Source: a virus. From it: 37,595 bases of DNA. The stretch lies in the IMG/VR virus record IMGVR_UViG_3300028883_000023, positions 1 to 37,595 of that record; one strand, given 5' to 3'. A program made the position numbers and the translations under genes. Shown piece after piece: positions 12,848 through 37,595 of this stretch. Position 1 is the stretch's first letter; each line of letters starts with the position of its first letter. The notes under the pieces are model-generated. The model did no database searches. It saw only the letters and a program-made list of their open reading frames with translations, and was not told the origin of the DNA.

Positions 12848-13234
12848 TTATGCTGGTTCTTCTTTATCCTCACGAACTGTGTTTTCTTCTTCTCCAAATA
12901 ACAACTCCTCTACATCTATTGTATCATTATCAACGAACTGCTTTATCCTTTCGATAATATCCTCACCGTTTTCCAACATTAATTGATCAATACAGGTTGC
13001 GAACATATCACATATATTTTCCTTGCTGAAGCTGGTTAGATTGTCAAATCCTGCCCGGTAGATATAATAATGGAATATCTCATGTAAACAGATTAAAAAT
13101 CCATCAGTTGAATTAATGAAATATGCTTTGTTATCTTGTAAGACAGCCCTGCCAGTATAATCCGGGGCAAATTGCAAAGAATTATCCGATACCTTGATTA
13201 GCTCGATTTCACGTGAGAATAGATTTATTTCCAT
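12848..13234 (-). CDS. Small HExxH putative metallopeptidase
   Basis: 128 residues. HEIFH at 51-55 within a helix (CLHEIFHYYIYRAGF) is the zinc-peptidase signature. A downstream acidic helix (ENICDMFATC) could supply the third ligand, as in ImmA/IrrE-type or other compact phage metallopeptidases. The C-terminus is Glu-rich. GGAGG precedes the ATG. The start codon and ribosome binding site lie inside a 45-bp sequence repeated exactly at 14912-14956. Substrate unknown. Confidence 0.55.
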   Translation of the reverse strand: MEINLFSREIELIKVSDNSLQFAPDYTGRAVLQDNKAYFINSTDGFLICLHEIFHYYIYRAGFDNLTSFSKENICDMFATCIDQLMLENGEDIIERIKQFVDNDTIDVEELLFGEEENTVREDKEEPA

Positions 13235-13276
13235 TATTCCTCCAAGTTATATACATTTTCTGCGTGGTACTCACAC
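13232..13276 (-). repeat. 45-bp exact repeat, copy 1 (start codon, RBS and cassette 3' end)
   Basis: Bases 13232-13276 are identical to 14912-14956. On the coding strand the repeat runs from inside the attC-like site of the upstream unit, through GCAGAAAATG and TATAACTTGGAGG, to the ATG of the next gene. The genes on both sides differ between the two copies, so the repeat marks the same type of cassette-to-core junction used twice. Confidence 0.95.
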
Positions 13277-13283
13277 GTTATGT
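13246..13283 (-). other. Composite attC-like site at 3' end of cassette 1
   Basis: On the coding strand: R'' ACATAAC, then GTGTGAGTACCACG shared with the full site at 18620-18665, then GCAGAAAATG and TATAACTTG. It lacks the R' GTTATRY box and a strong L''/L' stem, so it is not a complete linear attC. The same layout occurs at 14926-14963, and related ones at 20806-20843 and 26972-27010. Confidence 0.45.
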
Positions 13284-13502
13284 CGCTTTAATTTTCAATT
13301 TTTTTGCTAATCTGATTAAACAATCAGAGCAACAAAGATCATAAGAATCTGGATGAGTTCCATCTCCATTGTATTCAAAATTTGCAACTTCTAATTCTAT
13401 TTTTGGATATTTTTCGTCTGGAATTATACATTTGCATACATCACAAACTACTGCAAATCTATCATTTTCTATTAATTCTGTACCTATTTTTTTAAAAGCC
13501 AT
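13278..13502 (-). CDS. Small cysteine-rich protein, cassette gene
   Basis: 74 residues from the ATG at 13502, chosen because AAGGAGAAAAC precedes it; the longer frame upstream runs through the attC-like site. Four or five cysteines (CDVCK near 21-24 and CCSDC near 57-61) suggest a treble-clef or zinc-ribbon fold. The stop TAA is inside the R'' box of the 3' site. It is the only gene of cassette 1 and lies between two core genes of the leftward operon. Function unknown. Confidence 0.65.
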   Translation of the reverse strand: MAFKKIGTELIENDRFAVVCDVCKCIIPDEKYPKIELEVANFEYNGDGTHPDSYDLCCSDCLIRLAKKLKIKAT

Positions 13503-13525
13503 GTTTTCTCCTTGATTTTTTCGCA

Positions 13526-13576
13526 ACATAACAAGCGAACCAGTGCTAACCGCACCGCTTTCACCCACCGTTATCA
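13526..13576 (-). other. attC-like recombination site
   Basis: On the coding strand: R'' TGATAAC (its TGA is the stop of the preceding membrane-protein gene), GGTGGGTGA spacer, inner stem GTGC-ggtta-GCAC, AAGCG pairing with CGCTT, and R' GTTATGT. Outer boxes are inverted and 51 bp apart, within attC size range. The R' side belongs to cassette 1. Confidence 0.6.
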
Positions 13577-14215
13577 CCACCTCACCCCAAACCCCAAACC
13601 ATACCAAAACACCAAATCTGAGTCAATGCCAACGGAAGGGGCAAATATTAGTCTCTTATACCTTGCCACAATGGGTGAAATGACACCCAGAATCAACGAT
13701 CTATTTTTCTGAGTATAAAAACACATCTGGGAAGAAAACTGCCAATCTGGCAACGGTATTTCTTTTGTGACAGTTATTTTTGGAATCCCGGTCACGGTTG
13801 TTTCAACGTCAAAACTCTGGGTTAGATAATGGTATTTCAGGTCTTGATAGAACTGCAAGCCCTGATGATCATAATCATATCTGGTTATTGCAACCCGGTT
13901 ATCCTGCTCATCGGGCATTATCTCAGCCACAGTCTTTTCAACTATCTTTTCAGGTTCCTTTGTGATATAGATAATCTTTGGCTTAGGCTGTTCTTGTTCT
14001 TCCCGCTGTTCAACTACTGCCGGGATCCCTGTCACCTTTTCCGTAACTGGATGCGGTATCGGGAAGCTGGCAACTGAGATTGTTTCCTTGATTGACTTCT
14101 GCCCTGCCCGGTATCGGAATTCACCGTAAGCAAATACGGCAATTATAATCAGCAATGTTATGGACAGTTTCTTATGCTTGCCAATAAAATTTATTATCGT
14201 TATTATTGTTTTCAT
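13574..14215 (-). CDS. Membrane-anchored periplasmic protein, possible spanin
   Basis: 213 residues. An N-terminal helix (about 17-32, LSITLLIIIAVFAYGE) follows a basic cap, then a Pro/Glu/Lys-rich extended stretch (EQREEQEQPKPKIIYITKEPEKIVEKTV), and a C-terminal beta-strand region ending in an aromatic residue (VFWYGLGFGVRW), reminiscent of outer-membrane insertion signals. An inner-membrane anchor plus a spanning segment plus an outer-membrane-like end would suit a unimolecular spanin, but this is an inference from layout. The stop overlaps an attC-like R'' box. Confidence 0.45.
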   Translation of the reverse strand: MKTIITIINFIGKHKKLSITLLIIIAVFAYGEFRYRAGQKSIKETISVASFPIPHPVTEKVTGIPAVVEQREEQEQPKPKIIYITKEPEKIVEKTVAEIMPDEQDNRVAITRYDYDHQGLQFYQDLKYHYLTQSFDVETTVTGIPKITVTKEIPLPDWQFSSQMCFYTQKNRSLILGVISPIVARYKRLIFAPSVGIDSDLVFWYGLGFGVRW

Positions 14216-14228
14216 TCGTTCTCCTTAT

Positions 14229-14522
14229 TTATGCTATATATGTATTATGTTTTTTCAGTTTAGTCCCAATACTGAATTTAATATTTTCCAGATATTTTGT
14301 TCTTATGCTAAATTCGATATACATTGGTTCCACACTAACTAACCTAACATATTTTTCAGGATTAATAACTAAGCTTATCAAATCTCCTTTTATATTCAAA
14401 TCGTCTGCTGTTATTTCTATTTCATTGCCAGCATTAATATCATCAAAACAGTCATTCTCTAAAATAATCCATTGCCCGGTATGTTTGCAAAAAAGCTTTC
14501 CATTAATTTTAATCTCTGTCAT
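14229..14522 (-). CDS. Conserved-looking small protein of unknown function
   Basis: 97 residues with no membrane segment or motif. The N-terminus (MTEIKINGKLFCKHTGQWIILEND) is beta-rich. The start overlaps the stop of the DUF551-like gene (TAATGA), so the two are translationally coupled, and GGAGAAATA provides the ribosome binding site. Confidence 0.6.
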   Translation of the reverse strand: MTEIKINGKLFCKHTGQWIILENDCFDDINAGNEIEITADDLNIKGDLISLVINPEKYVRLVSVEPMYIEFSIRTKYLENIKFSIGTKLKKHNTYIA

Positions 14523-14914
14523 TATTTCTCCTTGTCAACGTCAATCAACACAGCCGGTTTATCTGTTCTGAATTCTATATTGCCCCTTGAACCATTGCCC
14601 GTAATAGATATGCTGATATCATAAGAAACAAAACATTCTTTCAGTAGATAATCACCAACAATTATATCAACTTTGGTATTATCTGAAACAGTTTCTTCTA
14701 TAATGAGCTTTTTTCTTTCACTCTCGTTATTGATCGGTGGAAAAGGCATCCAGTGTGTCACACTTTTTGCAAAAGGCTTCAATTTAACATTCCATTTATT
14801 ATTTTCATAAATACCTACATCTCTATATGGAATATCTTCATCCAGTGAATCGGCAAGGATTAAAACTAAAACACCATCATCTGGCACCCTATCTTTTATG
14901 CTTATCCATTTCAT
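14522..14914 (-). CDS. DUF551-like protein
   Basis: 130 residues. The N-terminal 60 residues fit the DUF551 pattern: WISIKDRVPDDGVLVLI near the start and THWMPFPP near 55. DUF551 proteins are common small phage and prophage proteins of unknown function. The C-terminal half is unrelated beta sequence. The start codon and TTGGAGG binding site lie in the 45-bp repeat shared with the gene at 12848-13234. Confidence 0.7.
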   Translation of the reverse strand: MKWISIKDRVPDDGVLVLILADSLDEDIPYRDVGIYENNKWNVKLKPFAKSVTHWMPFPPINNESERKKLIIEETVSDNTKVDIIVGDYLLKECFVSYDISISITGNGSRGNIEFRTDKPAVLIDVDKEK

Positions 14915-14956
14915 TATTCCTCCAAGTTATATACATTTTCTGCGTGGTACTCACAC
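14912..14956 (-). repeat. 45-bp exact repeat, copy 2
   Basis: Identical to 13232-13276. It covers the ATG and ribosome binding site of the DUF551-like gene and most of the composite attC-like site at the end of cassette 2. Just past the repeat the two copies differ at one base (G versus A) and then share TTAT before diverging. Confidence 0.95.
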
Positions 14957-14963
14957 ATTATAC
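14926..14963 (-). other. Composite attC-like site at 3' end of cassette 2
   Basis: Coding strand: R''-like GTATAAT (T in place of the final C), GTGTGAGTACCACG, GCAGAAAATG, TATAACTTG. It is 36-37 bases identical with the site at 13246-13283 and likewise lacks an R' GTT box. Confidence 0.45.
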
Positions 14964-14966
14964 ACA

Positions 14967-15173
14967 CTAATCATCAACACAGTTTGATAATTTATGTCTT
15001 ATCAATTCAACATCTTCTTTTGAGATAGTTAGTTTTCCTTCTTCATTGCGTACCTTAGCTTCTGAAAAAACTATAGTCATAGTTCCGTCATAATTAAATC
15101 TTATTCCATTTCCTTCATTATCTTCGTAATCTTCATAAGCTACATATTCAGTTTTTACTTTTTTGAAACACAT
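14967..15173 (-). CDS. 68-residue acidic protein, cassette gene
   Basis: A 68-residue soluble acidic protein with two beta-like stretches (GIRFNYDGTMTIVFSEA) and a C-terminal helix. No family recognised. It has an AGGAAATAT-type leader and ends in TAG 3 bp before the R''-like box. Sole gene of cassette 2, inserted between the DUF551 gene and the CxxCC protein gene of the core operon. Confidence 0.6.
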   Translation of the reverse strand: MCFKKVKTEYVAYEDYEDNEGNGIRFNYDGTMTIVFSEAKVRNEEGKLTISKEDVELIRHKLSNCVDD

Positions 15174-15192
15174 ATTTCCTCCGAATTAGTAT

Positions 15193-15250
15193 GTATAACA
15201 AGCGTATCTATGTTCCGCAAAGCTGCACATCGCACACACCACCGTTATAC
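15193..15250 (-). other. attC-like recombination site
   Basis: Perfectly inverted outer boxes GTATAAC and GTTATAC, 58 bp end to end. On the coding strand: R'' GTATAAC, GGTGGTGTG, inner pairing ATGT-GCA with GC-ACAT interrupted by a GGA bulge, GATACGCTT, and R' GTTATAC. The R'' side follows the stop of the CxxCC protein gene by 9 bp, and the R' side opens cassette 2. Confidence 0.65.
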
Positions 15251-15259
15251 GAACCATCA

Positions 15260-15448
15260 CTACTCCTCATCTGTCACCCCAAATCCAATCTCAACCTTAT
15301 CAGAATACTCCAATTCAGGATATTCCCGGTTGTCGATCTCCGGCTCAGGCTGACAATTCAAGATAGCAATGGTGCAGGGCTTTTTATAATATCTACACCA
15401 TGCAATTAATCTATAACAACAGCCCTTACAGTTTTTTGGAAAGCTCAT
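15260..15448 (-). CDS. Small cysteine-rich protein (CKGCC)
   Basis: 62 residues starting at the ATG that overlaps the resolvase stop (TAATG). Cysteines at CKGCC, C in WCRYY, C in KKPC and C in LNC give a CxxCC...C...C...C pattern, likely metal-binding. The C-terminal half is acidic. It is coupled to the RuvC-like gene. Function unknown. Confidence 0.55.
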   Translation of the reverse strand: MSFPKNCKGCCYRLIAWCRYYKKPCTIAILNCQPEPEIDNREYPELEYSDKVEIGFGVTDEE

Positions 15449-15915
15449 TATCTTCCCCAAATCAGCATAATCGCATCCCGACCATGCTCATTTGTTCTTT
15501 TCTTCCATTTAGTTACTTTCTCAAATCTTTCAGCATTCAATTTAGTACCCCCTTTAACAGGATGGCACAATTTAAAATCACAGCCCAAATCTGTCAAGAA
15601 ATCTTCCCAAATTTTTGCGTCTCTCTTTACTGATCCAGCACCCTGCATTTTACTATTTGAGTCCCGACCATACCATTTTCTGAGCCGTGCATCTTCAACG
15701 TAAACCTTCAGCCTATCACCAACCTGTGCATAATAGCCCATGACAATCTGCCATGCCCGGTGGATCATCATTGACCCGCAGAAAACGATGACTGATTTAT
15801 TTTTCAGGTTTTCATTGTATTTTGCAATTATCCCAACCCCGGTATTGACCCCTGTATCTATTCCGATTAATAATTCCTTCAGGTATTTATCATCAGCGTA
15901 TGGTGCTTGACACAT
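15448..15915 (-). CDS. RuvC-like Holliday junction resolvase
   Basis: 155 residues with the RNase H-fold resolvase signature: first acidic residue Asp20 in GIDTGVNTGVG, second Glu74 in VYVEDAR, and C-terminal HGRD (His144, Asp147). RuvC-type enzymes cut four-way junctions, and phage versions resolve replication and recombination branches before packaging. It sits between the DnaQ-like exonuclease and a zinc-binding mini-protein, within a recombination block that includes Rad52-like and SSB genes. Confidence 0.8.
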   Translation of the reverse strand: MCQAPYADDKYLKELLIGIDTGVNTGVGIIAKYNENLKNKSVIVFCGSMMIHRAWQIVMGYYAQVGDRLKVYVEDARLRKWYGRDSNSKMQGAGSVKRDAKIWEDFLTDLGCDFKLCHPVKGGTKLNAERFEKVTKWKKRTNEHGRDAIMLIWGR

Positions 15916-15921
15916 GATTAC

Positions 15922-16914
15922 CTACCTTGCCAGTGATCTTATTTCATTGACCTGCATAATTTCTCTTGATTTCATTCTAACAAAAGCACCACAGTTTTTG
16001 CATTGATGGCATTGATATTTTCCGGCAGGCGTAAAATAGGCTTTTCCGGTTGCCTGTAATTTATCCGACCCGCAATGCGAACAGTGATTTTCTTTGCCGT
16101 CCATGTATAGATTGAGGTTGGGATGTGACTTCATGTAAGGTCTTAACTTTAGGTATAACTCTTCCAGGATAGATGTATCATTCCCGCAATATTCGTACAT
16201 GGTTTGTAAGGCTGAGTCAACTATCTTCTTATCATATATGATAGACTCGATTACGTTCTTGTCATTTGTTTTGACTTCAGAGTGGACAGCTTCACCTATA
16301 CAATCCCGCCAGTATTGAAAGCCCATCTCATATTTACCTGGCAATCCAAATTTTCGACACAGCCAATCCAATTTATGGCTTTCCGCTCCGCAGCCGAATA
16401 TTCTTCTTGATTGTTTTAGTGTGTCTATAGTCTGGATAGGTGAATAAGGTGGAAGTCCATGCTTTATAAACATTCTGGCATTAGCTTTTTTAATGTCAAA
16501 ATTTTCTACATTATGACCGATAATAATATCCGCTTCGTCAAGAAACTTCCACAGGTCGTTACAGATATGCTGATCATCTTTTCCAATTGCTTCTTTAGCT
16601 GTCAATCTACCCCCGAAAACTTCATCACCAAATAGCCATTTGCCCCGCCAGCACAGCATAAACCATTCATTGACTATTTGCTGGATATGGATATAATCAT
16701 TACGCTTTAATTGCCAGACATAAACATCAACCGGGGCGGTCTCAATATCCAGTAACCCAATTTTAGCCGTTCTGTTATTAGTCAATCGTCTGTACTCTCT
16801 CTCATATCTATGAACAGACTCAATTTTCATATTTTCCAGCCTTGCCGTTTCTTCAATTCCATACTGGTCAATCAATCCCTGTATGTGAACCAATCTTGGA
16901 AATGCACTTGGCAT
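15922..16914 (-). CDS. DnaQ-like 3'-5' exonuclease with C-terminal zinc ribbon
   Basis: 330 residues. Residues 1-50 look like a helix-turn-helix (ETARLENMKIESVHRYEREYR). The exonuclease motifs are LDIET (Asp56, Glu58), GHNVENFD (133-140) and YCGNDTSIL near 240 (YxxxD). The last 60 residues hold CSHCG and CHQCKNCG, a zinc ribbon. This fits the RNase H-like PolB-exonuclease-related family, a stand-alone nuclease without a polymerase domain. AGGGGGAATT precedes the ATG. A repair or recombination role is likely. Confidence 0.75.
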   Translation of the reverse strand: MPSAFPRLVHIQGLIDQYGIEETARLENMKIESVHRYEREYRRLTNNRTAKIGLLDIETAPVDVYVWQLKRNDYIHIQQIVNEWFMLCWRGKWLFGDEVFGGRLTAKEAIGKDDQHICNDLWKFLDEADIIIGHNVENFDIKKANARMFIKHGLPPYSPIQTIDTLKQSRRIFGCGAESHKLDWLCRKFGLPGKYEMGFQYWRDCIGEAVHSEVKTNDKNVIESIIYDKKIVDSALQTMYEYCGNDTSILEELYLKLRPYMKSHPNLNLYMDGKENHCSHCGSDKLQATGKAYFTPAGKYQCHQCKNCGAFVRMKSREIMQVNEIRSLAR

Positions 16915-16923
16915 AATTCCCCC

Positions 16924-17724
16924 TTATTCAAATTCCAGCCTAAGCTGTTCTCTTTCATTATCAATTCTTTCTTTCGCTATTTCGCAGTATTCTTTCGATA
17001 TTTCACAACCAATCCAACGTCTATTGCTTCGTTCTGCCATCTTTGCTGTAGTTCCGCTTCCCATAAACGGGTCGAAAACAATGTCTCCTTCGTTTGACCA
17101 CGATACGATATGGTCATATGCAAGTTTCTCTGGGAATATTGCAGGATGTTCATAAGCTATTTTATCTTTTGTTACGTGTCTACCACCAACATCATATTTC
17201 CACACATTGCCTCTTGATTTAAGTGTAGATACTTTTTCTTGATATTTTTTCTTACCAGAATCTTTTCTTTGTTTTGGCTTTCTTTTATCCATATAAAGTT
17301 TTTTTTCTTTAAGACAATTAAATGTATTTATAGTTGATTTGGTGAACACGAACATATATTCAAATTCTTGTTGGTATCTTTTACAATTCTGATGCAACCA
17401 TTGTTTCTGATATATCATCGTATCGTGGAGATTAAATCCACATTCCATAAAATACAATGCTTGTCTAAAACTGCTTCCTGTTTCGCTTCCGTTTATGGTT
17501 GCGTCACCAACTACCCATACCACTACACCACCTTGCTTTGTAGTTCGATATAATTCCTTTGCCAGTTCTTCAAAGTTCCATGAATATCCTTTGTAGTCTC
17601 GCAGGTTATCATATGGCGGAGATGTTACTGTTAAATCGAATGTGTTATCATTTACTGTGTTTAGATATATTACATTGTCACAGCAAAATAGCTTTCCAGC
17701 CTCCGTTTCATAGTAGTGCTTCAT
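16924..17724 (-). CDS. DNA methyltransferase (beta-class, N4-cytosine/N6-adenine)
   Basis: 266 residues with motif IV TSPPYDN (SPPY at 35-38) preceding motif I DPFMGSGTT (218-226), the order that defines beta-class amino-methyltransferases. No cognate restriction gene is adjacent, so it is an orphan enzyme that probably shields phage DNA from host restriction or marks DNA for regulation. Start and stop overlap the neighbouring peptidase gene as ATGA. SPPY is found in both N4-C and N6-A enzymes, so the base modified cannot be decided. Confidence 0.85.
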   Translation of the reverse strand: MKHYYETEAGKLFCCDNVIYLNTVNDNTFDLTVTSPPYDNLRDYKGYSWNFEELAKELYRTTKQGGVVVWVVGDATINGSETGSSFRQALYFMECGFNLHDTMIYQKQWLHQNCKRYQQEFEYMFVFTKSTINTFNCLKEKKLYMDKRKPKQRKDSGKKKYQEKVSTLKSRGNVWKYDVGGRHVTKDKIAYEHPAIFPEKLAYDHIVSWSNEGDIVFDPFMGSGTTAKMAERSNRRWIGCEISKEYCEIAKERIDNEREQLRLEFE

Positions 17725-18125
17725 TCAATCACCCTTTCAACAATCCAATTCTCATTATATACCTGTCTCTTTCCTGACTTGGTTTTCCTGTAATCACAAT
17801 GTATGAACCCACTTGCCGGATAGACCCCGAAGCGGGTATAATCTGTGTATTTTATAAGTGCTTCAAGCAAGACCTGAATCTGCACATTGGCAGTCCAGTC
17901 AGTAGCACCAAACTCGCCGGGCAGAAAGCAGTGAGCACCTGTGCCACTCCTGCCTTTTTTCATATCCCACCATGAGGGACGGTAACCTGATTTTTCAGAG
18001 CACCAAATCCTAATCCCAGTCTCAGCCATAGTCCTTTCAATCGGGCGGATATGATATACCAAGATCAAATCAGCTATTCTGAGGCTAATCGGGTCTTGGG
18101 TTATACATAGATCTGATATGTTCAT
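17721..18125 (-). CDS. M15A-type peptidase (endolysin candidate)
   Basis: 134 residues with the signature of zinc D-Ala-D-Ala / L-Ala-D-Glu peptidases of the M15A type: SGYRP at 46-50, GTGAHC (His65), GATDW (Asp76) and GFIHCDYR (His109). The single compact catalytic domain without signal peptide fits a phage endolysin that cleaves peptidoglycan stem peptides. It is unusual in lying in the leftward early-type operon, upstream of a methyltransferase and over 5 kb from the holin candidates. It is the only clear muralytic enzyme seen. AAGGAGATATT precedes the ATG. Confidence 0.7.
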   Translation of the reverse strand: MNISDLCITQDPISLRIADLILVYHIRPIERTMAETGIRIWCSEKSGYRPSWWDMKKGRSGTGAHCFLPGEFGATDWTANVQIQVLLEALIKYTDYTRFGVYPASGFIHCDYRKTKSGKRQVYNENWIVERVIE

Positions 18126-18133
18126 AATATCTC

Positions 18134-18179
18134 CTTATAACGATGTGTCAACAGGGACGTTGGACACTGGCGTTATAAG
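18134..18179 (-). other. attC-like site with clear hairpin and bulged L'' base
   Basis: Coding strand: CTTATAAC / GTTATAAG outer boxes form a perfect 9-bp inverted pair with the flanking G/C. Inside, GTGTCCAAC pairs with GTTGACAC with one unpaired C in the left arm, and a 6-base loop. An extra base in L'' is the hallmark that gives attC its polarity. The gene stop TAA of the cassette lies in the R'' box. 46 bp in total. Confidence 0.7.
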
Positions 18180-18625
18180 CCATAAACATTTCCACCATTA
18201 TCTTGAATAATTTTAGTAAATTCATCTAATTTACAACCTGCCATTATTTTGATATTATCTTTCAAATATTTCGGAGAACATAACCAAGGAACTTCACCTT
18301 TGTTTATGTCTTCAACCGAATATGGTGAATTATAATGTCCTTCCGATGGTTCTTCTAAACATACATTGTCAATCGCAACTTTCTTTATTTCCCATCTTGG
18401 CGTTCCGTCTTCATTCCAATCTTCTGGAAATTTCTTGGCTCGGTCTGGTAAATCTTTTCTTGATGGCTCGTATGGTTCTCCTGCATTATGTTCGTATGGT
18501 CTATCATTCCAATCATCACCCCATTGTTCTGATAATTCTTGTGTTGTAAAGTAACACCAAGGCAGTTCTACATAACATAATTTAAAATTTTTCATATTTT
18601 TCTCCTTTCTATTTACGGCTTATAA
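18141..18625 (-). mobile_element. Integron-like gene cassette 3
   Basis: A 485-bp unit bounded by two complete attC-like sites (18620-18665 and 18134-18179). The coding-strand 5' end GTTATAAGCCGTAAAT and the inverse of its own 3' end GTTATAAGCCATAAAC agree at 14 of 16 positions. It holds one gene, co-oriented with the operon. This is the cleanest of the six units. Confidence 0.65.
18173..18595 (-). CDS. 140-residue phage-type protein of unknown function, cassette gene
   Basis: 140 residues, Trp/Asp/Pro-rich, with ELSEQWGDDWNDRPYEHNAG near 20-39 and NSPYSVEDINKGEVPWL near 88-104. I recognise this pattern as that of a widespread small phage protein without known function. No signal peptide or membrane helix. 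The stop lies inside the R'' box of the 3' attC-like site, as is common for integron cassette genes. The phage-type family suggests that cassettes and phages share this gene pool. Confidence 0.65.
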   Translation of the reverse strand: MKNFKLCYVELPWCYFTTQELSEQWGDDWNDRPYEHNAGEPYEPSRKDLPDRAKKFPEDWNEDGTPRWEIKKVAIDNVCLEEPSEGHYNSPYSVEDINKGEVPWLCSPKYLKDNIKIMAGCKLDEFTKIIQDNGGNVYGL

Positions 18626-18665
18626 CAAGTTGCTCCACGAAACGTGGTAGCTCCACACGTTATGC
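18620..18665 (-). other. attC-like site with clear hairpin
   Basis: Coding strand: R'' GCATAAC, GTGTGGA, left arm GCTACCACG, loop TTT, right arm CGTGGAGC, AACTT, R' GTTATAA. The arms pair except for one extra A in the left (L'') arm, again giving attC-like polarity. It follows the stop of the 18684-18980 gene by 18 bp. 46 bp end to end. Confidence 0.65.
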
Positions 18666-18683
18666 AAATCGGGAATTCAATTC

Positions 18684-18980
18684 CTAATCTGCACAATATT
18701 TTGCAATCTCTTTCTGCAATTGTGTCTTTGAGCCACTGGCATTTTTCAAGAAATAAGCCCAGAGAATCCCCTTCTCTTTATCAAACTTATCGTTTGGACT
18801 TGTCTTGACGACTGTTTTCGTTCCATCATCCCAAAAAACTATTGTTGCCGGTGGAATGAACACAACTCTGTCAATATGGGTTGTGGCATAACAACCATAA
18901 GTGATATATCTAAAAGCGTCATAATCGTCAGTAAAAATTTTTAGCCTTATCTCTGCTTTATTTCCCTTGACTGAAGCCAT
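18684..18980 (-). CDS. Common phage protein with TIVFWDDGTKTVV motif
   Basis: 98 residues from the ATG at 18980, chosen because AGGGGGATTT lies directly upstream; a longer frame overlaps the previous gene. The motif TIVFWDDGTKTVVKTSPNDKFDKEKGILWAY is familiar from many phage proteins of unknown function, where it is linked with a C-terminal helical tail. No catalytic residues are obvious. It precedes an attC-like site. Confidence 0.65.
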   Translation of the reverse strand: MASVKGNKAEIRLKIFTDDYDAFRYITYGCYATTHIDRVVFIPPATIVFWDDGTKTVVKTSPNDKFDKEKGILWAYFLKNASGSKTQLQKEIAKYCAD

Positions 18981-18988
18981 AAATCCCC

Positions 18989-19928: not shown

Positions 19929-19950
19929 TTTATACTCCTTGTTTAGTTAT

Positions 19951-20172: not shown

Positions 20173-20174
20173 GA

Positions 20175-20785: not shown

Positions 20786-20805
20786 TTCAACCTCCCTAAA
20801 TCTCA

Positions 20806-20843
20806 GTTATATACATTTTCTGCGCAGCATTCAATCGTTATAC
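20806..20843 (-). other. Composite attC-like site at 3' end of cassette 4
   Basis: Coding strand: R'' GTATAAC, GATTGAATG, palindrome CTGCGCAG, AAAATG, TATATAACTGAGAT. It shares CTGCGCAGAAAATG and TATAACTGAGAT with the site at 26972-27010. No R' GTT box. TTGAAT and TATAAC are 17 bp apart, so a promoter reading of this copy is also possible. Confidence 0.4.
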
Positions 20844-20846
20844 GCA

Positions 20847-21116
20847 TTAAGCATCGGTTATACTTAATCCGAGTAATCCAATTAAATCTATCATTTCATG
20901 TGATCCCCATTCATTTTCAATGTGAAATCCTGTTTCTGTTTCTGATAATATCTCCTGAATTTCTTTGTCGATAACTTGCACATTCCACCAGTTTCCATCT
21001 GCTCCAATAATTAGTGCGTCTTTGTGGTTCATTAATGTCTGTATTTTGTTTTTGAATGATAACTTGTTAAATTTCTTTGCTGCATCCTGATAATTTTGCA
21101 ATGTTTTTAATTCCAT
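20847..21116 (-). CDS. 89-residue protein, cassette gene
   Basis: 89 residues, soluble, with ALIIGADGNWWNVQVIDKEI in the middle and a C-terminal helix. No family recognised. AAGGATAAAATT precedes the ATG. The stop TAA is 2 bp from the R'' box. Sole gene of cassette 4, placed between SSB and a small membrane gene. Confidence 0.6.
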   Translation of the reverse strand: MELKTLQNYQDAAKKFNKLSFKNKIQTLMNHKDALIIGADGNWWNVQVIDKEIQEILSETETGFHIENEWGSHEMIDLIGLLGLSITDA

Positions 21117-21139
21117 AATTTTATCCTTTTAATTAATGC

Positions 21140-21189
21140 GTATAACAAGGCGTTCAGCGTGTCTACGCTGAACCACCCGACCGTTAAGG
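21140..21189 (-). other. attC-like site with perfect 8-bp hairpin
   Basis: Coding strand: R'' CCTTAAC, GGTCGGGTG, GTTCAGCG-tagaca-CGCTGAAC, GCCTT, R' GTTATAC. The inner stem is perfect over 8 bp. The R'' box is degenerate. It follows the SSB stop by 11 bp; the R' half belongs to cassette 4. A Rho-independent terminator is unlikely because no T run follows. Confidence 0.6.
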
Positions 21190-21202
21190 TGCAATCTCTC
21201 CG

Positions 21203-21613
21203 CTAAAATGGAACATCTTCATCAGTTACGGCTTCTTGCTGCTTGTCCGGCTCTTGCTGGCTAACATCTTCCCCTTTTTCCAGGAAACTAACCTTATTAG
21301 CAACGATCTCAGTTATCTTTCTATTCTGGTTGTTTCTATCCTGATAAGATCTGGTCTGCAAATATCCCTCAACAATGACAGGGCTGCCTTTATAGAGATT
21401 TTCTGCACACTTCCCAGCCCTTTTATCCCAAACAACCACATCGATATAACTGGTTTCCTGTTGCCATTCTCCATCTTTCTGGTAGCTTCGGTCAAAAGCT
21501 AAAGACAGCTTCGCAACCGCTGTCCCGTTGGGTGTATATTTCAATTCAATGTCTCTGGTCAACCGACCGGAGATTATGATACTGTTGATCCGTGGTAATC
21601 TTAATTCACTCAT
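21203..21613 (-). CDS. ssb: Single-stranded DNA-binding protein
   Basis: 136 residues from the ATG at 21613 (AGGAGAGTAAG upstream); a longer frame intrudes on the neighbour and is not used. OB-fold hallmarks: INSIIISGRLTRDIELKYTPNGTAVAKLSLAF near 10-40, SYIDVVVWDKRAGKCAENLYKGSPVIVEGYLQTRSY, and the acidic tip ending DEDVPF that recruits partner proteins. It acts with the adjacent Rad52-like protein in phage recombination and replication. Confidence 0.95.
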   Translation of the reverse strand: MSELRLPRINSIIISGRLTRDIELKYTPNGTAVAKLSLAFDRSYQKDGEWQQETSYIDVVVWDKRAGKCAENLYKGSPVIVEGYLQTRSYQDRNNQNRKITEIVANKVSFLEKGEDVSQQEPDKQQEAVTDEDVPF

Positions 21614-21623
21614 CTTACTCTCC

Positions 21624-21986
21624 TCACATTTGTTTTTGTCTTTCCATTTCAGTTTTACGATATGAAAGTATTGACTGATAGGCATTTACTTTTGCCTTTA
21701 ATGACTCAATTTTGCTGAGTTGGTATTTCAGAATTCCCTCTGCTATTATAAGGTTTTTCTTGAATTCTGCGACAATGCCTTTAGCTGTTTTGTCTATTAT
21801 ACTTATCGGCATATTATCAGCTTTGAGCCGAGCTATTTCCAAGCCCAATTGCTTATCATATATAGCTTGTACTTCAGCAAGTTTATCATACAGATCCGGC
21901 AATCCCTCAACTGCTGTAGAATAATCATTAAAAGCCTTGAAAATCCCGGTCATTGCCTGTTCTGGGGTTATGTCTATCTGGCTCAT
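21624..21986 (-). CDS. Helical protein between Rad52-like and SSB genes
   Basis: 120 residues, almost wholly alpha-helical with heptad character (YDKLAEVQAIYDKQLGLEIARLKAD; LKYQLSKIESLKAKVNAYQ). No family recognised. The start overlaps the stop of the Rad52-like gene (TAATGA), suggesting a functional partner in the recombination block. Confidence 0.6.
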   Translation of the reverse strand: MSQIDITPEQAMTGIFKAFNDYSTAVEGLPDLYDKLAEVQAIYDKQLGLEIARLKADNMPISIIDKTAKGIVAEFKKNLIIAEGILKYQLSKIESLKAKVNAYQSILSYRKTEMERQKQM

Positions 21987-22837
21987 TATTTCAACCCCAT
22001 ATCCCTTGAAATCCGGTCAAATTCTTTTGTTAAACTTTTTGCCTCTTTTATAGTAACTTCAAGGATTTGATTTTTATATGTTTCTTTGAGCTTAGATGTA
22101 AGATGGGGTCTTAATCTAAGGTAGTAGTCAACCAGATCAAGTTTCTTTATGATAAGATTAATATCATCTTTTGAAACGGCTGATTTGGCATCACCATGAA
22201 ATATCCGCCCAGTTTCTTCAGAAATCTTTTCTTTTTCAAGAGCTAAATCAATTTGAGCATGAGCATCATCAATCATTAATTGCAAATCTTCCGGTGACGT
22301 ATATTTTGGTTTTTTGCTGTCAGGTTCTTCACTATACTCATCTTTGTTTTGGTTTTCTGCGTTCATCTTATTGTTTATGTAATCGGTTAAATCTTTTATT
22401 TTCTTACCATGTTTATCAACCGGGATTGCTTTATTATTTATGTTTTCAGCATTAAGCCAGACGCCGGACATTCTGTAAACGTCTCTAAATATACCCCATT
22501 TAACACCAGCCAATTTTAAAGCGTCAGATGCTTCGCCCTTAAGCTTAATATTATCATCATTATTATAATTCTCAACCTCAACACCGGCACCCCATTTCCA
22601 CAACCAGCCATCTTCAATCTTTATGCCGATCCCACAGAACATGGTGTTTTTGACCTGCTTGTAATCATCTTGCCACCCGGTAGGGGTAAGGACATTGTCA
22701 AGCCTATCTTCTAAATCACGGGCATCAAAATAAGGTACGCAAAATACGGATGTTTTAGGTCTATTTGAATTGTTTATCTTCCACTTATATTCTGGTAATG
22801 GTTCTCTGAGTTTACCCCAATCAATATTATTTTCCAT
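21986..22837 (-). CDS. Rad52-like single-strand annealing protein
   Basis: 283 residues from the ATG at 22837, preceded by GGGGGATAAAG. Residues 1-115 match the Rad52/Rad22 family core: DARDLEDRLDNVLTPTGWQDDYK, CGIGIKIEDGWLWKWGAG, and KGEASDALKLAGVKWGIFRDVYRM. The C-terminal half is charged and helical and probably binds partners. Such proteins anneal complementary single strands coated by SSB, and adjacency to SSB and RuvC-like genes supports a recombination-dependent replication or repair role. Confidence 0.75.
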   Translation of the reverse strand: MENNIDWGKLREPLPEYKWKINNSNRPKTSVFCVPYFDARDLEDRLDNVLTPTGWQDDYKQVKNTMFCGIGIKIEDGWLWKWGAGVEVENYNNDDNIKLKGEASDALKLAGVKWGIFRDVYRMSGVWLNAENINNKAIPVDKHGKKIKDLTDYINNKMNAENQNKDEYSEEPDSKKPKYTSPEDLQLMIDDAHAQIDLALEKEKISEETGRIFHGDAKSAVSKDDINLIIKKLDLVDYYLRLRPHLTSKLKETYKNQILEVTIKEAKSLTKEFDRISRDMGLK

Positions 22838-23351
22838 CTTTATCCCCCTTATCATTATCATCGCCATTATCCTTTCTGATAACCTTATATAAACCGTTCT
22901 TATCTGGAACTGGCTCTATTTTGTATGTATTTTCTATTTTGCTTTTAGCATCATCAGCATTTACCTTTTCCCATGTTTCATAAAAAATATCAAGGGAATT
23001 TTCCAGGTTCTTGATGATGTAGTTTTTCACTTCGATTGTTCTTTTCAGCTCAGCCACTATCCTGTCATGGCTGATTTCTACCTGTTTTCTGTTCCCCAAC
23101 AGGCATTCGTTATCAGCCTTCAGTTTGGCATTTTCGGTCAAAATCCTCTCAATTTCTTTACCATCCTTCATGTGGAAATAGTGACTCATTGCCATTTTCG
23201 TAACCATACGGCTGCCGACCTTGTCAAGGATTGCTGCGTTGACGGTTGGTAGGGTTACTTCCAATTCTTTCGCCAGATCAGCCTGGGTCATGTTATACTC
23301 TTTTAGCCGGGCTTTGATTTCTTTACCTGTTAAAATAAAAATTTCTAACAT
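22827..23351 (-). CDS. HTH/coiled-coil DNA-binding protein
   Basis: 174 residues. An N-terminal XRE-like helix-turn-helix spans about 8-45 (IKARLKEYNMTQADLAKELEVTLPTVNAAI), followed by a long coiled coil (60-135) and a charged Asp/Lys-rich tail. It may be an early regulator or a replication-associated protein. The ATG overlaps the previous stop and follows GGAGGAATA. The length and coiled coil are unlike a simple Cro/CI repressor. Confidence 0.6.
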   Translation of the reverse strand: MLEIFILTGKEIKARLKEYNMTQADLAKELEVTLPTVNAAILDKVGSRMVTKMAMSHYFHMKDGKEIERILTENAKLKADNECLLGNRKQVEISHDRIVAELKRTIEVKNYIIKNLENSLDIFYETWEKVNADDAKSKIENTYKIEPVPDKNGLYKVIRKDNGDDNDKGDKDGK

Positions 23352-23605
23352 TATTCCTCCTCACTGTATTTAATTAATTCATTCAGTCTCTTTATGAGAT
23401 ATTTACCACTATACGTCCAACATGGACATGAACTATTTTCAATTATCTTTGGAAATAGTTTTTGGCAAATTGAGCAATCCCCTTCATCTTCATCTTCATT
23501 ACGAAAAGCCCATTTTGGACAACCGGTCATGCTACCCTTTTTTATCAGATCAATCATCTCCTTAACTGCGGGTATTTCTTCGGGCAGTAATTTTATCAAC
23601 TCCAT
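23351..23605 (-). CDS. Cysteine-rich small protein
   Basis: 84 residues from the ATG at 23605 (GAGGAGGAAAAA upstream). Cysteines in TGCPKW, CSICQK and CPCW form a likely metal-binding site (C, CxxC, CxC). It lies between the IVSxxV-type protein and the HTH protein genes. Function unknown. Confidence 0.6.
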   Translation of the reverse strand: MELIKLLPEEIPAVKEMIDLIKKGSMTGCPKWAFRNEDEDEGDCSICQKLFPKIIENSSCPCWTYSGKYLIKRLNELIKYSEEE

Positions 23606-23615
23606 TTTTTCCTCC

Positions 23616-23918
23616 TCATTTAATAAAGCCTGGAACACTAACAATGTGTCCCTTTACATTTCTAACAGTTTCAGGATGTCCCGTTGCCGGAGCAATTAAA
23701 TCACCCCTGTTTGAAGCACTTTTAACCATCCCAGAAACAATAATAAAAACGCCTTCTTCTTCCTCAGGTAATCCTTCAATTTCTCCGAAAACCTGATTGC
23801 AGAAAAGGCGTTCGTCAAATTTTGAGAATGAAGCAGAAACCCTGGCAACACCTTCAGACTCAAAAACCCTACCATCATTCATTGCGATAGGGTGTGGAGT
23901 AAAATTTCTTAATCTCAT
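23616..23918 (-). CDS. Conserved small protein with PHPI...IVSGMV pattern
   Basis: 100 residues. The sequence FTPHPIAMNDGRVFESEGVARV...GLPEEEEGVFIIVSGMVKSASNRGDLIAPATG follows a pattern I know from small phage and actinobacterial proteins (LPxxxxGxxxIVSxxVxxAxxRxDLxxP) of unknown function. The fold is compact alpha/beta. AGGAGGAATT precedes the ATG. Confidence 0.65.
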   Translation of the reverse strand: MRLRNFTPHPIAMNDGRVFESEGVARVSASFSKFDERLFCNQVFGEIEGLPEEEEGVFIIVSGMVKSASNRGDLIAPATGHPETVRNVKGHIVSVPGFIK

Positions 23919-23926
23919 AATTCCTC

Positions 23927-24442
23927 CTATTCAAATGACAAGCTGTCAATCGATTCAAGAAGAGATTTTTTATCACCTTTCTCGATATGCCTAAAATCAG
24001 ATGGATAAAGGACAGTGTTTCTATATCTGTCTTCTACAAAGCCGTCAGAAATCAAATAGTCTTCCGACAATTCCTGATCTTCCCAATACTCTGTTTCAGG
24101 TTCAGGGGATGCTTTAACTGAATGTTTGGGATCAGGGTTGAGAATATCTTCAGCATCTTCTTTGGAAATAATGTGTTCTTCAAATAGAACGCGTTCCTTC
24201 CAATCCCCGATTGCTATTGATACGAACAGACCAAACCCTGTGTCAATGATTTCAGGATTGGAGATTGTCCCAGTGAGGGACTTACCTTCGCGGAATTCAA
24301 AATCTGATTCCTTAAAGGATTCAGACCTGGAGCCTCCAATAGCTCTAATAGAAACCATATCCTCGTAGAAACCTTCGGCTATAAAAACCCCCCTAAGATC
24401 ATAAGGGAGTTTTTCCTGATTAATAAATTTTGCAAATATCAT
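23927..24442 (-). CDS. First gene of leftward operon, unknown
   Basis: 171 residues, strongly acidic, beta-rich N-terminal half (LRGVFIAEGFYEDMVSIRAIGG), charged C-terminus. GAGGAGGAGAA precedes the ATG. It is the promoter-proximal gene of the leftward operon, transcribed from the divergent promoter region at 24.47-24.50 kb. No motif points to a function. Confidence 0.6.
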   Translation of the reverse strand: MIFAKFINQEKLPYDLRGVFIAEGFYEDMVSIRAIGGSRSESFKESDFEFREGKSLTGTISNPEIIDTGFGLFVSIAIGDWKERVLFEEHIISKEDAEDILNPDPKHSVKASPEPETEYWEDQELSEDYLISDGFVEDRYRNTVLYPSDFRHIEKGDKKSLLESIDSLSFE

Positions 24443-24470
24443 TTCTCCTCCTCATTTAATTCACAGGTCA

Positions 24471-24499
24471 AATTTAAATTAGCTTATATTTATTGTCAA
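24471..24499 (-). promoter_or_regulatory. Leftward early promoter (candidate)
   Basis: On the - strand: TTGACA (24494-24499) and TAAATT (24471-24476) with a 17-bp spacer, 29 bp from the first ATG. It faces away from the rightward candidate at 24524-24551. The two -35 boxes stand back to back, 24 bp apart. Confidence 0.55.
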
Positions 24500-24523
24500 A
24501 TTCTTTTTATATTTTTTTTGTCC

Positions 24524-24551
24524 TTGACATTTTTTCGGGGATAATTATTTA
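24524..24551 (+). promoter_or_regulatory. Rightward early promoter (candidate)
   Basis: TTGACA at 24524-24529 and TATTTA at 24546-24551 with a 16-bp spacer, 28 bp upstream of the first + strand ATG. Two such boxes in one 137-bp gap between divergent operons make a shared control region likely. No distinct operator palindrome beyond the back-to-back -35 boxes was seen. Confidence 0.5.
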
Positions 24552-24579
24552 TTGAATCGACACAAAAATGGAGGAGAAA

Positions 24580-24735
24580 ATGAAAGAATTACTTATTGCG
24601 ATTTATACATTATTAATGTTTGCAATTTTAATTTTTATTGATCATTTTTCAATAAAAGTATCTGGACTTTCGTGTGCTTTATTTTTAATTGGGTCAGTAT
24701 TAAATTTTATCGTAGGAATCATCAAAAAAAATTAA
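24580..24735 (+). CDS. 51-residue hydrophobic membrane protein
   Basis: A short gene with GGAGGAGAAA before its ATG. The protein has two hydrophobic helices (about 4-20, LLIAIYTLLMFAILIFI, and 29-47, LSCALFLIGSVLNFIVGII) and a KKN tail. It is the first gene of the rightward early operon. First early genes of phages often encode host-takeover or superinfection-exclusion peptides, but nothing here shows that. Confidence 0.5.
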   Translation: MKELLIAIYTLLMFAILIFIDHFSIKVSGLSCALFLIGSVLNFIVGIIKKN

Positions 24736-24744
24736 GGAGATTTT

Positions 24745-25113
24745 ATGGAAACTATATTGGGTCAAGAATGTTATATCCCAGTATTTGAATTTACTGAGGA
24801 TGAGTTCAAAAAAGAGATCGAGCTGATTGAAAAGAATGTACGGCATATAATTAGTAAGGGGCATCCGATAATATTGTACCGATCAGTCCGCACAGCAGAA
24901 GTATATGATACAACAAAATACTTCGTTGTTCGTGGTTTTGATGCTAAAAATGAAACAGTTGGTAGGTACGATAAAAACAAAAGATTCACCTTCTATCTAA
25001 CAAATAATGAACGAAATTTAAAGCATAAATATCAGGTAATAATTGATATGATCAAAACCGGTGAGATATTATACAAATGGCTTCCTGGTGATGATGTTGA
25101 GATTAGGAGATAA
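24745..25113 (+). CDS. Unknown 122-residue early protein
   Basis: 122 residues, soluble, charged, alpha/beta in character (FFTEDEF-like start, HIISKGHPIILYRSVRTAEVY, RYDKNKRFTFYLTNNER). AAGGAGATTTT precedes the ATG. The TAA stop lies within the R''-like box of the attC-like site at 25108-25188. No family recognised. Confidence 0.6.
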   Translation: METILGQECYIPVFEFTEDEFKKEIELIEKNVRHIISKGHPIILYRSVRTAEVYDTTKYFVVRGFDAKNETVGRYDKNKRFTFYLTNNERNLKHKYQVIIDMIKTGEILYKWLPGDDVEIRR

Positions 25114-25188
25114 TGTCCAACGTGTGCCACGTGAAGATCGCAAAGCGATAAAGCGAGGTGGGCGTAAAAGTGGACACGTATGTTATGT
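25108..25188 (+). other. Long attC-like site
   Basis: Outer boxes GATAATG (25109-25115) and GTTATGT (25182-25188), then a 6-bp inner pair TGTCCA / TGGACA and a structured middle containing CGTG-tgc-CACG and ATCGC-aaa-GCGAT hairpins. It is 81 bp long, so it resembles attC sites with a large variable terminal structure. R'' is degenerate (AAT in place of AAC), as in the next site. Confidence 0.5.
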
Positions 25189-25537
25189 GCAGAAAAATAA
25201 GGAGGAAAAATGAGAATCAACGTATTGAACAAAGAGGGAATGCTGACAGAAGAAGATAGAAAAGCAAAATTGGCTCATGGATGTGATCATTTAACATTTG
25301 AAACTTGTTTGGATTTATCAGAACCAATAAAAATATATAGTTATGGGTCAACCGATAAAGTAAGTTTAACAAATTATTCTAAAGACATTGCAAGCTTTAT
25401 TACTTGGTGGACAATAATAGTATTAACTGACCTTAATGGTTTTTCTGGATTTCATAATGTAAGATTTGAACCAATAGGATTTACTGTTATACAATAGGCA
25501 CATAATGCAAGTATCCAACATCTCAGTTGATACAGCG
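25183..25537 (+). mobile_element. Integron-like gene cassette 5
   Basis: A 355-bp single-gene unit from G^TTATGTGC (25182) to the G at 25537. Its 5' end TTATGTGC is an 8-bp inverse match of its own 3' end GCACATAA. The gene is co-oriented with the rightward early operon. Confidence 0.55.
25210..25497 (+). CDS. 95-residue protein, cassette gene
   Basis: 95 residues, soluble, no motif recognised; a hydrophobic stretch (FITWWTIIVLTDL) near 63-75 is too short for certain membrane insertion. AAGGAGGAAAA precedes the ATG. The stop lies 2 bp before the R'' box. Sole gene of cassette 5. Confidence 0.6.
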   Translation: MRINVLNKEGMLTEEDRKAKLAHGCDHLTFETCLDLSEPIKIYSYGSTDKVSLTNYSKDIASFITWWTIIVLTDLNGFSGFHNVRFEPIGFTVIQ

Positions 25538-25543
25538 TTATAC
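25500..25543 (+). other. attC-like site with bulged L'' base
   Basis: R'' ACATAAT, GCAA, left arm GTATCCAAC, loop ATCTCA, right arm GTTGATAC, AGC, R' GTTATAC. The arms pair perfectly apart from one extra C in the left arm, the same arrangement as at 18134-18179 (GTGTCCAAC / GTTGACAC). 44 bp end to end. One of the two best candidates. Confidence 0.7.
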
Positions 25544-25582
25544 AACGCCAAGTACAATAAATAATACTTACAGGGGGTAAAT

Positions 25583-25630
25583 ATGGACTTATTAATAAAG
25601 ACAAGGATTAATTATGAGCAGATCATATAA
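25583..25630 (+). CDS. Possible 15-residue leader peptide
   Basis: A tiny frame (MDLLIKTRINYEQII) with a strong CAGGGGGTAAAT leader, overlapping the start of the replication-protein gene by 17 bp in another phase. The replication gene itself has only AAGGATTAATT, so the leader may couple or tune its translation. It may equally be chance. Confidence 0.35.
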   Translation: MDLLIKTRINYEQII

Positions 25631-26576
25631 AGAGGACAACAGACCTTCATTTCAATTCTATCCTGATGATTGGATAGGTGAGCCAAGTCTCAGGTTATGC
25701 AGTTTAGCCGCAAAGGGACTATGGGTTGAAATGTTATGTATCATGTTTAAGGCGGAAAAAAGGGGTAATTTATCGGTCAATTCTAAGCAAATCGGAAGCA
25801 AAGAGTTAGCAAAATTAACTGGAACTGATGAACAAACAATAATCAAATTACTAACAGAGCTTGAAACTCTTGAAGTTTTCTCAAAGCATGATGATAACAC
25901 GATTTATAACCGCAGAATGTATAATGAGTCAGAGAGAAAAAGGCAGATTTCCGAAGCAAGAGCCGAAGCTGGAAGGAGGGGCGGACATAAGCAAACTGGA
26001 AGAAAAGAACCAAGCAAAAAAGAAGCAAAACAGCCTTCTTCTTCTACTTCTTCTTCTTCTTCTACTTCTTCTTCTTCTTCTACTCCTACTTCTAAGAAAA
26101 GAACCCCCCAAACCCCCCAAGTATTTCCTGAATATCCTGAGGTGGAAAAATACTTTATTGAGAGAGCCTTTATTGAATTCAAAAAAATAGATATAGAAAA
26201 TGCTAAGGCTCAGGCTAAACTATACTATCAAATCAGATCTGACAATAAATGGGTTAAAGCAAACAAGTCAAAAGTCAAGAACTGGAAAAATGACTGTATC
26301 CAATGGGTATTAAATCACAGGAAAGATATTTACAGCATATCGGGGATTACTTCAAATAAAAAGCTTAAACCAAAAATCAGAGCATGGCAATCTTTCAATA
26401 ATATCCAAGAAATATCGGATTATTTTGCCGATCTGGAGAAAAAAAACATCATACCTGATTATCCAGCAAATGTAATTAAATTAATCAAAGCCTATCTATA
26501 CCGTCCTCAATATTCAAAACATCCTGATTATAAACCACAGGAGTATTGGGATGGTAAATGGGAAGGATTGAGATAA
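25614..26576 (+). CDS. Replication initiator/replisome organizer-like protein
   Basis: 320 residues. The N-terminal 100 residues (FQFYPDDWIGEPSLRLCSLAAKGLWVEMLCIMFKAEKRG ... IGSKELAKLTGTDEQTIIKLLTELETLEVF) match the winged-helix region of DUF1376/replisome-organizer-type phage replication proteins. Then come a basic stretch (RRGGHKQTGRK) and a low-complexity Ser/Thr linker (about residues 140-165) coded by TCT/TTC triplets. The C-terminus is helical and basic. It probably binds the origin and loads the host helicase. The stop overlaps an attC-like R'' box. Confidence 0.6.
   Translation: MSRSYKEDNRPSFQFYPDDWIGEPSLRLCSLAAKGLWVEMLCIMFKAEKRGNLSVNSKQIGSKELAKLTGTDEQTIIKLLTELETLEVFSKHDDNTIYNRRMYNESERKRQISEARAEAGRRGGHKQTGRKEPSKKEAKQPSSSTSSSSSTSSSSSTPTSKKRTPQTPQVFPEYPEVEKYFIERAFIEFKKIDIENAKAQAKLYYQIRSDNKWVKANKSKVKNWKNDCIQWVLNHRKDIYSISGITSNKKLKPKIRAWQSFNNIQEISDYFADLEKKNIIPDYPANVIKLIKAYLYRPQYSKHPDYKPQEYWDGKWEGLR
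26034..26094 (+). repeat. TCT/TTC triplet microsatellite
   Basis: About 60 bp of almost pure pyrimidine triplets (TCT, TTC, with TAC/CCT interruptions) encoding a Ser/Thr-rich linker inside the replication-protein gene. Replication slippage in multiples of three would only change linker length, so this is tolerated variation and not a phase switch. Confidence 0.9.
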
Positions 26577-26617
26577 CGTGGCGGAGCTGCAACGCTTCGG
26601 TGAGCGACTTGTTATAT
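26571..26617 (+). other. attC-like site
   Basis: R'' AGATAAC (contains the TAA stop of the replication gene), GTGGCGGA, left arm GCTGCAACG, loop CTT, right arm CGGTGAGC, GACTT, R' GTTATAT. It aligns well with the site at 18620-18665, including the extra base in the left arm. 47 bp end to end. Confidence 0.6.
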
Positions 26618-26639
26618 CCCGACAGGGAAAGGAGAAGAA

Positions 26640-26969
26640 ATGAGAAATCACGAAGGATGTATAAGAGCGTATATTAGGAGTAGCAAAGCATGGTACTCAA
26701 AGGTAATTGATCGAGAAGAAATAATGATTGGAATGTATCATCCAGAAGGTGGAACAAGTGGTGAATTTAAAATAGAATGGGTTGAAATTGGCAAATCAAT
26801 AACTCCAATCCTGAAATGTTATGATGACGCTTGGTCTGCCTTATGGAACTTTAAAGATTTTCTTGAAGAATTATCTAAAATAGATAGCGAGAATATAGAT
26901 GAATTTGGTGTTGTTCAGATATTGGATAGACTTGGGATAAAAGATATTACTGAATATCGTCAAAAATAA
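26640..26969 (+). CDS. 109-residue conserved phage-type protein, cassette gene
   Basis: 109 residues. The motif MYHPEGGTSGEFKIEWVEIG followed by YDDAWSALWNF and a C-terminal helical LDRLGIKDITEY pattern is familiar from small phage proteins of unknown function. AAAGGAGAAGAA precedes the ATG. Sole gene of cassette 6; its stop is 2 bp from the R'' region. Confidence 0.65.
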   Translation: MRNHEGCIRAYIRSSKAWYSKVIDREEIMIGMYHPEGGTSGEFKIEWVEIGKSITPILKCYDDAWSALWNFKDFLEELSKIDSENIDEFGVVQILDRLGIKDITEYRQK

Positions 26970-26971
26970 GG

Positions 26972-27010
26972 GATATAACGTGCGGGTACTGCGCAGAAAA
27001 TGCGTATAAC
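26972..27010 (+). other. Composite attC-like site at 3' end of cassette 6
   Basis: R'' GATATAAC, GTGCGGGTA, palindrome CTGCGCAG, AAAATG, then a second GTATAAC in direct, not inverted, orientation, followed by TGAGAT. It is close to identical over CTGCGCAGAAAATG and TATAACTGAGAT with 20806-20843. Confidence 0.45.
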
Positions 27011-27103
27011 TGAGATAAATCAAATGTCCAGTTTATTAATGAAGAAAAAAGCCAACGATAGACACTAAACTATAAAAAGTGTCAAATGTTGTGAGGGGGA
27101 TTG

Positions 27104-37587: not shown

Positions 37588-37595
37588 CTAATAAG
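37469..37595. repeat. Terminal direct repeat, copy 2
   Basis: Identical to bases 1-127. It includes the end of the tail-completion gene and the first 12 bases of the tail terminator gene at 116-577. See copy 1. Confidence 0.93.

Follow-up and report, generated by a model that had tools for sequence, protein, structure and literature searches.

Candidate attI-like platforms and inverted attC-like single-gene units in a viral genome without an integron integrase

attC-like sites and B elements in the early region

The DNA analysed here (the window) is the whole of IMG/VR virus record IMGVR_UViG_3300028883_000023, 37,595 bases in length. An exact 127-bp direct repeat lies at both record ends (window 1-127 and 37469-37595); the record is therefore probably a full genome, circularly permuted or terminally redundant. 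Encoded in it are a terminase, a portal protein, Erf, SSB, an exonuclease and a RuvC-like resolvase, together with a DNA methyltransferase, a replisome organizer and a ParB-like protein. Between genes of the early region lie sites that resemble attC, the recombination site of integron gene cassettes, and four copies of a second, attI-like element, here called B. A complete integron is defined by an integron integrase gene (intI), and a search of the entire record with PF00589 returned no matches, leaving no recognisable tyrosine recombinase and no such gene. The spacing of the sites and the absence of intI would fit a cluster of attC sites lacking an integron integrase (CALIN), defined by at least two attC sites within a few kilobases.

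The original prediction, made from the letters alone, listed eight attC-like sites with inverted outer boxes and an inner hairpin. All eight were found in place, each 86-100% intergenic, in a genome whose intergenic share is 6.9%. They were grouped as A1 (13526, 15193, 18620, 21140 and 26571), A2 (18134 and 25500) and one imperfect site (25108). On the strand opposite the genes, the A1 sites start with ATAACAAG (or its TATAACAAG equivalent) and end with a C-rich stretch and CGTTA; the pattern ATAACAAG(N18-44)CGTTA occurs five times in the genome, compared with 0.02 expected from dinucleotide shuffles. These attC-like sites are real and not a product of chance. Inverted outer R boxes (RYYYAAC ... 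GTTRRRY) are present, with small departures, at 13526, 15193, 18134, 18620, 21140 and 26571, but one box of 21140 is TTAAC, and 25108 and 25500 each have one imperfect box (ATAATG / CATTAT).

Three sites (18134, 21140 and 13526) show a clear inner hairpin; these and 25108 are the only ones that folded with a z-score below -2.5 relative to shuffles. Pairing of inner L boxes, forming a second stem, was seen at 18134, 18620, 21140 and 25500, and the two A2 sites form full double-stem hairpins with one extra base. In the gene direction, the single extra left-arm base that had been described for three sites, and as probable for 26571, occurs at 18134, 18620 and 25500 but is missing from 26571. A terminator role for the sites was considered and rejected, as terminator-like hairpins are not enriched in the window (8 versus 8.0 in shuffles).

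The proposed check with an attC covariance model was carried out with a model (R1) built from the aligned ends of 31 attC sites from class 1 plasmid integrons, the integron of Shewanella phage M16-3, Desulfobacterota-type integrons, viral contig L106 and phage TJE1, with no window sequence included. When both strands of the window were searched, the six best matches were 18620, 15193, 26571, 18135, 13526 and 21140, in this order (Table 1), all of them among the eight predicted sites and each at least 86% intergenic. Sites from control loci, many of which were training members, scored 16.8-47.8 bits, and only three places in 847 kb of other DNA reached at least 14.4 bits. Because the predicted sites had been chosen by their boxes and R1 rewards the same boxes, the two lines of evidence are not fully independent. 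With a first, box-only matrix, 18620 alone stood out from Markov shuffles; a last box scan gave mostly coincidences within open reading frames (ORFs), and an Rfam scan gave no match. The attC signal is collectively strong while each single site is weak; attC identity is partly supported, for the sites as a set but not site by site, and the occurrence of this layout together with strong attCs in other viral contigs adds to the collective support.

The four copies of B (13246, 14926, 20806 and 26974) share the gene-direction end CGCAGAAAATGYRTATAACT. When read in attC orientation, B carries two GTTAT/TTAT boxes that are direct, not inverted, with a spacing of exactly 31 bp in 4/4 copies. Each copy begins a unit consisting of B, one ORF and an A1 site (four units). 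The closest two copies are 96% identical over 53 nt, a stretch that takes in the ribosome-binding site downstream and breaks off right behind the second TTAT, as expected after a crossover between G and TT. B is positioned where attI would sit: the unit opens with the second GTTAT box, and the direct box lies 31 bp upstream. Both the B repeats and the inversion of the five A1 sites relative to the genes had been overlooked in the original prediction. Scans of other viral records (the viral_contigs set) yielded no exact match to B; 29 looser matches lacked a B-like context and were read as chance.

Table 1. Sites, B elements and cassette ORFs of the window, with R1 scores and fold z-scores relative to shuffles
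Feature	Position	Strand	R1 (bits)	Fold z	Remarks
B element	13246-13281	+			direct GTTAT boxes 31 bp apart; exact repeat of right-half motif; 53-nt repeat ending at TTAT
Cassette ORF	13290-13502	-			between B 13246 and A1 13526; zinc-finger-like cysteines; no PHROG or Pfam family
A1, attC-like	13526-13576	+	13.2	-2.7	opposite genes; ATAACAAG..CGTTA; right box holds stop codon of ORF 13574-14215
B element	14926-14961	+			second box ATTAT; right-half motif repeat, spacing, 53-nt repeat
Cassette ORF	14967-15173	-			between B 14926 and A1 15193; weak PHROG match only (E 0.016)
A1, attC-like	15193-15250	+	14.8	-0.08	opposite genes; boxes only, without stable inner stem
A2	18134-18179	+	13.5 (18135-18178)	-5.5	complete R and L stems, one extra base; polarity ambiguous (boxes +, extra base -)
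Cassette ORF	18173-18595	-			between A2 18134 and A1 18620; family member also adjoins attC in viral contig L106
A1, attC-like, top score	18620-18665	+	17.6 (E 0.068)		opposite genes by boxes, extra base contrary
B element	20806-20841	+			right-half motif repeat, spacing, 53-nt repeat
Cassette ORF	20847-21116	-			between B 20806 and A1 21140; no family above cut-off
A1, attC-like	21140-21190	+	11.5	-3.5	after ssb; opposite genes; 9-bp inner stem
Imperfect attC-like	25108-25187		no match	-2.7	one ATAATG/CATTAT box
Possible cassette ORF	25210-25497	+			between 25108 and 25500; no family
A2	25500-25543	+	8.6 (25513-25543, +)		hairpin fold; one extra base, one imperfect box; normal orientation by appearance
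A1, attC-like	26571-26617	-	14.3	0.31	opposite genes; left end TAACAAGTCGCTCA, a typical attC end; no stable inner stem
Cassette ORF	26640-26969	+			between A1 26571 and B 26974; no family
B element	26974-27010	-			right-half motif repeat, spacing, 53-nt repeat

Cassette genes and their orientation in other viral contigs

A gene cassette is defined by a single ORF that ends at its attC site and lies on the same strand as that site. The units of the window hold single ORFs, but at the five A1 sites these lie on the opposite strand, with polarity read from the box motifs. Among bacterial and plasmid integrons, by comparison, the cassette ORF was on the attC strand at 30/32 sites and inverted at 2/32. 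Searches of PHROG and Pfam with the ORFs at 13290, 14967, 20847, 26640 and 25210 found no known phage family. The family of ORF 18173-18595 has relatives in 63 viral loci, and the relative in L106 likewise stands beside an inverted attC; no attC array is visible around L030, which holds the nearest bacterial relative. Contigs L194 and L219 have a cassette protein in common (48% identity). Sequence relationships of this kind would fit a phage cassette pool, and they do not prove movement.

Other viral attC sites were located with a 20-base pattern for the attC left end, which gave dozens of viral contigs. Scoring orientation from ORF length proved noisy for GC-rich contigs, and codon-aware ORF calls were used instead; L089, L106 and L153 were added, and L207 was also read by eye. 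Cassette genes were mostly inverted in 24 of the 37 other viral contigs with attC and not in the remaining 13. Among 35 contigs searched, a full integron integrase was found in only two, both non-inverted, and a recognisable one in none of the 24; a recognisable terminase was found in nine inverted contigs (in one of them weakly). The strongest inverted cases are L209 (7/7 sites), L207 (4/4), L194 (4/4), L168 and L219 (3/3 each) and L245; contigs with a lone site beside a small ORF carry little weight, and some IMG/VR records may be bacterial. L185 and L176 are near-duplicate inverted contigs from two metagenomes, whose common inverted cassette is 98.6% identical. The backwards layout looks new, and the window is not alone in showing it; searches of the open-access literature, with subscription journals and preprints outside that coverage, found inverted phage cassettes described nowhere.

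At the canonical start of the array, L170 and L209 share the element GTTAT...TTGGGGTCTA...GTTATG. A search of viral_contigs with TTGGGGTCTAN{5,8}GTTATG returned 35 contigs, and beyond L170 and L209 these included L244 and L245, in which strong attCs follow on the same strand, about 265 bp downstream. The L245 array has ten attC matches, with every called array ORF on the opposite strand. No strong attC accompanies the other motif matches, which seem to be due to chance. As the platform element of L170 and L209 predicted attC arrays, it supports B as the window's own version of a platform.

Further observations were made on individual contigs. Two cassettes of the L245 array (7817-7987 and 9216-9386) encode small cysteine-rich proteins that are 62% identical, which suggests duplication within the array. 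In L106 (13500-13600 and 8780-8870), the inverted-cassette ORF seems to begin within attC, so that part of the site would be translated as the N-terminus. In L154 (Polaribacter phage P12002L), a site of the published attC cluster, at 30005-30059, has a TAACAA..CGTTA polarity that is also opposite to its flanking genes.

Elsewhere in the window, a repressor-like ORF lies at 22827-23351. The product of ORF 28490-29296, which adjoins a ParB-like ORF, resembles Mom-like DNA modification proteins by reading of the sequence, and an anti-restriction function is possible. A run of TTC/TAC repeats at 26035-26094 encodes a Ser/Thr-rich stretch of the replisome organizer.

Interpretation and alternatives

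We consider it moderately probable that the genome carries integrase-less, attI-like platforms with inverted single-gene cassettes that are recombined by a host integron integrase (IntI). B would serve as the attI platform, with its second box, CG^TTAT, as the crossover point. An integron integrase supplied in trans by the host would bind the GTTAT boxes, pair the hairpin-folded attC strand with B and insert a circular cassette at CG^TTAT, so that a single ORF with its A1 site would come to stand at B. Facing against the attC polarity, the ORF would be read with the phage operon, and its reversal would make the recombinogenic attC strand the coding strand, exposed by transcription; for genes co-directional with replication, the coding strand would presumably also be the lagging-strand template. 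We infer insertion at CG^TTAT, the action of host IntI and continuing mobility.

A report on Vibrio cholerae states that cassette excision rises sharply when the chromosomal integron is inverted (PMC11023631), which would be consistent with the proposed reversed-gene mechanism; given that observation, reversed phage cassettes could be unusually mobile. More tentatively, many tailed phages may keep integrase-less, attI-like integron platforms of their own, with genes opposite attC, the recombinogenic attC strand as coding strand and a gene pool exchanged via host integrases. If true, a bacterial recombinase would reshape viral accessory genomes, phages would not only carry the cassette pool but also draw on it, and attC surveys in viruses should score gene orientation.

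Several observations weigh against recombination by a host integrase at B. The window sites are individually weak under R1 (11.5-17.6 bits), and chance box matches within genes also reach about 14 bits; the boxes, rather than the inner stem, therefore account for the R1 score, and this is the main limit on calling the sites attC. An inner L-box hairpin is absent or off-type at most sites, shuffles fold as well as 15193 and 26571, both of which lack L-box pairing, and B shows no obvious inverted L box. At 18620 and 18134/18135, the extra base implies a polarity opposite to that defined by the boxes. Site 25500 appears normally oriented, on the same strand as its gene, and the window may mix both site polarities.

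Nor was a host found, an intI seen, or a relative with an empty or otherwise filled B encountered. When about 400 genomes from two phyla were searched for a host with the box pattern, the matches stayed at background, about 0.2-0.25 per genome, and no close relatives were found through the terminase and Erf proteins. As a separate observation, the phylum to which genome G001 belongs often carries integron integrases, with 86/247 genomes exceeding the family cut-off (L055, L054 and other whole-genome loci). At the end of a contig of G001 (G001:C39:54158-54325, L040), an open frame of 58 aa corresponds to positions 259-313 of the integron integrase family and is perhaps a cut-off or broken intI.

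The sites could instead be decayed, immobile remnants of attC cassettes from a single past capture, perhaps through homologous or illegitimate recombination, that survive only as spacers and leaders between phage genes. The weak R1 scores, the missing inner stems at 15193 and 26571, a genome without an integrase and the lack of any relative showing turnover are all in keeping with such decay. We nevertheless regard it as rather unlikely, as five sites keep near-perfect outer boxes and each B, its 31-bp box spacing preserved, is followed by one unit and no more.

T4-type phages have mobile promoter and stem-loop modules, and the GTTAT/ATAAC boxes might likewise be operators or leader elements, for example bound by the phage's own repressor or forming promoter/hairpin modules that aid homologous gene shuffling. 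In favour of this reading, inverted (A) and direct (B) boxes alike are always intergenic, a ribosome-binding site follows closely downstream of B, a repressor-like ORF is present, and promoter-like matches are somewhat commoner than in shuffles. Such a regulatory role is improbable, however, as terminator-like hairpins are not enriched and as it leaves unexplained the single-ORF units, the TAACAAG and CGTTA ends that match attC, and the layout shared with viral contigs bearing strong attCs. Another tyrosine-recombinase system, integron-like only in its GTTAT boxes, could account for the clash of polarity marks at 18620 and 18135, the mostly non-L-box-like inner stems and the absence of B from the other viral records scanned, but is very improbable given that the attC model puts the window sites first, that 26571 has a typical attC left end and that the phage has no recombinase.

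Comparison with known integron systems

The original prediction had taken attC to be no usual phage trait, a view corrected by Qi et al. 2023 (PMC9892861), who described integrase-less attC clusters in 17 phages and reported that 5/6 tested sites were active with IntI1; usual and divergent directions were noted there, and no general inversion. Phage attC has thus been known since 2023, while the inverted layout and the B repeats look new. Like the window, the CALINs of virulent phages (TJE1, P12002L and PH101; PMC9892861) have attC-type sites between genes and no integron integrase. They form one cluster, in the usual orientation in TJE1 and PH101, whereas the window has single units spread over 13 kb of early region, five inverted A1 sites, four B copies and lower scores. 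The complete integron in Shewanella phage vB_SspM_M16-3 (MZ568829) resembles the window in its attC cassette array within a phage genome and its attI-type start, and differs in having intI and canonical attCs on the cassette-gene strand.

In the class 1 attI1 (L087, counted on sequence), the spacing of the direct GTTA boxes that precede the crossover is 32 bp, compared with 31 bp in all four copies of B. In contrast to the class 1 platform, B comes without intI, a demonstrated promoter or a clear inverted L box, occurs four times in one genome and has reversed cassette genes. Treponema chromosomal integrons (PMC3607928) likewise show an unusual relative orientation and short attCs (63-68 bp), but there the integrase gene is turned and transcribed toward attI while the cassette genes are not turned relative to attC; a Treponema-type inversion was rejected as an explanation on this ground. 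A similar layout is that of the IMG/VR contigs L106, L207, L209, L245 and L266. These differ from the window in their strong canonical attCs, arranged in arrays, and in a platform core (TTGGGGTCTA) that is not that of B; as in the window, their attCs lie opposite the cassette genes without intI, and L209 and L245 carry at the array start a GTTAT..GTTATG platform comparable to B.

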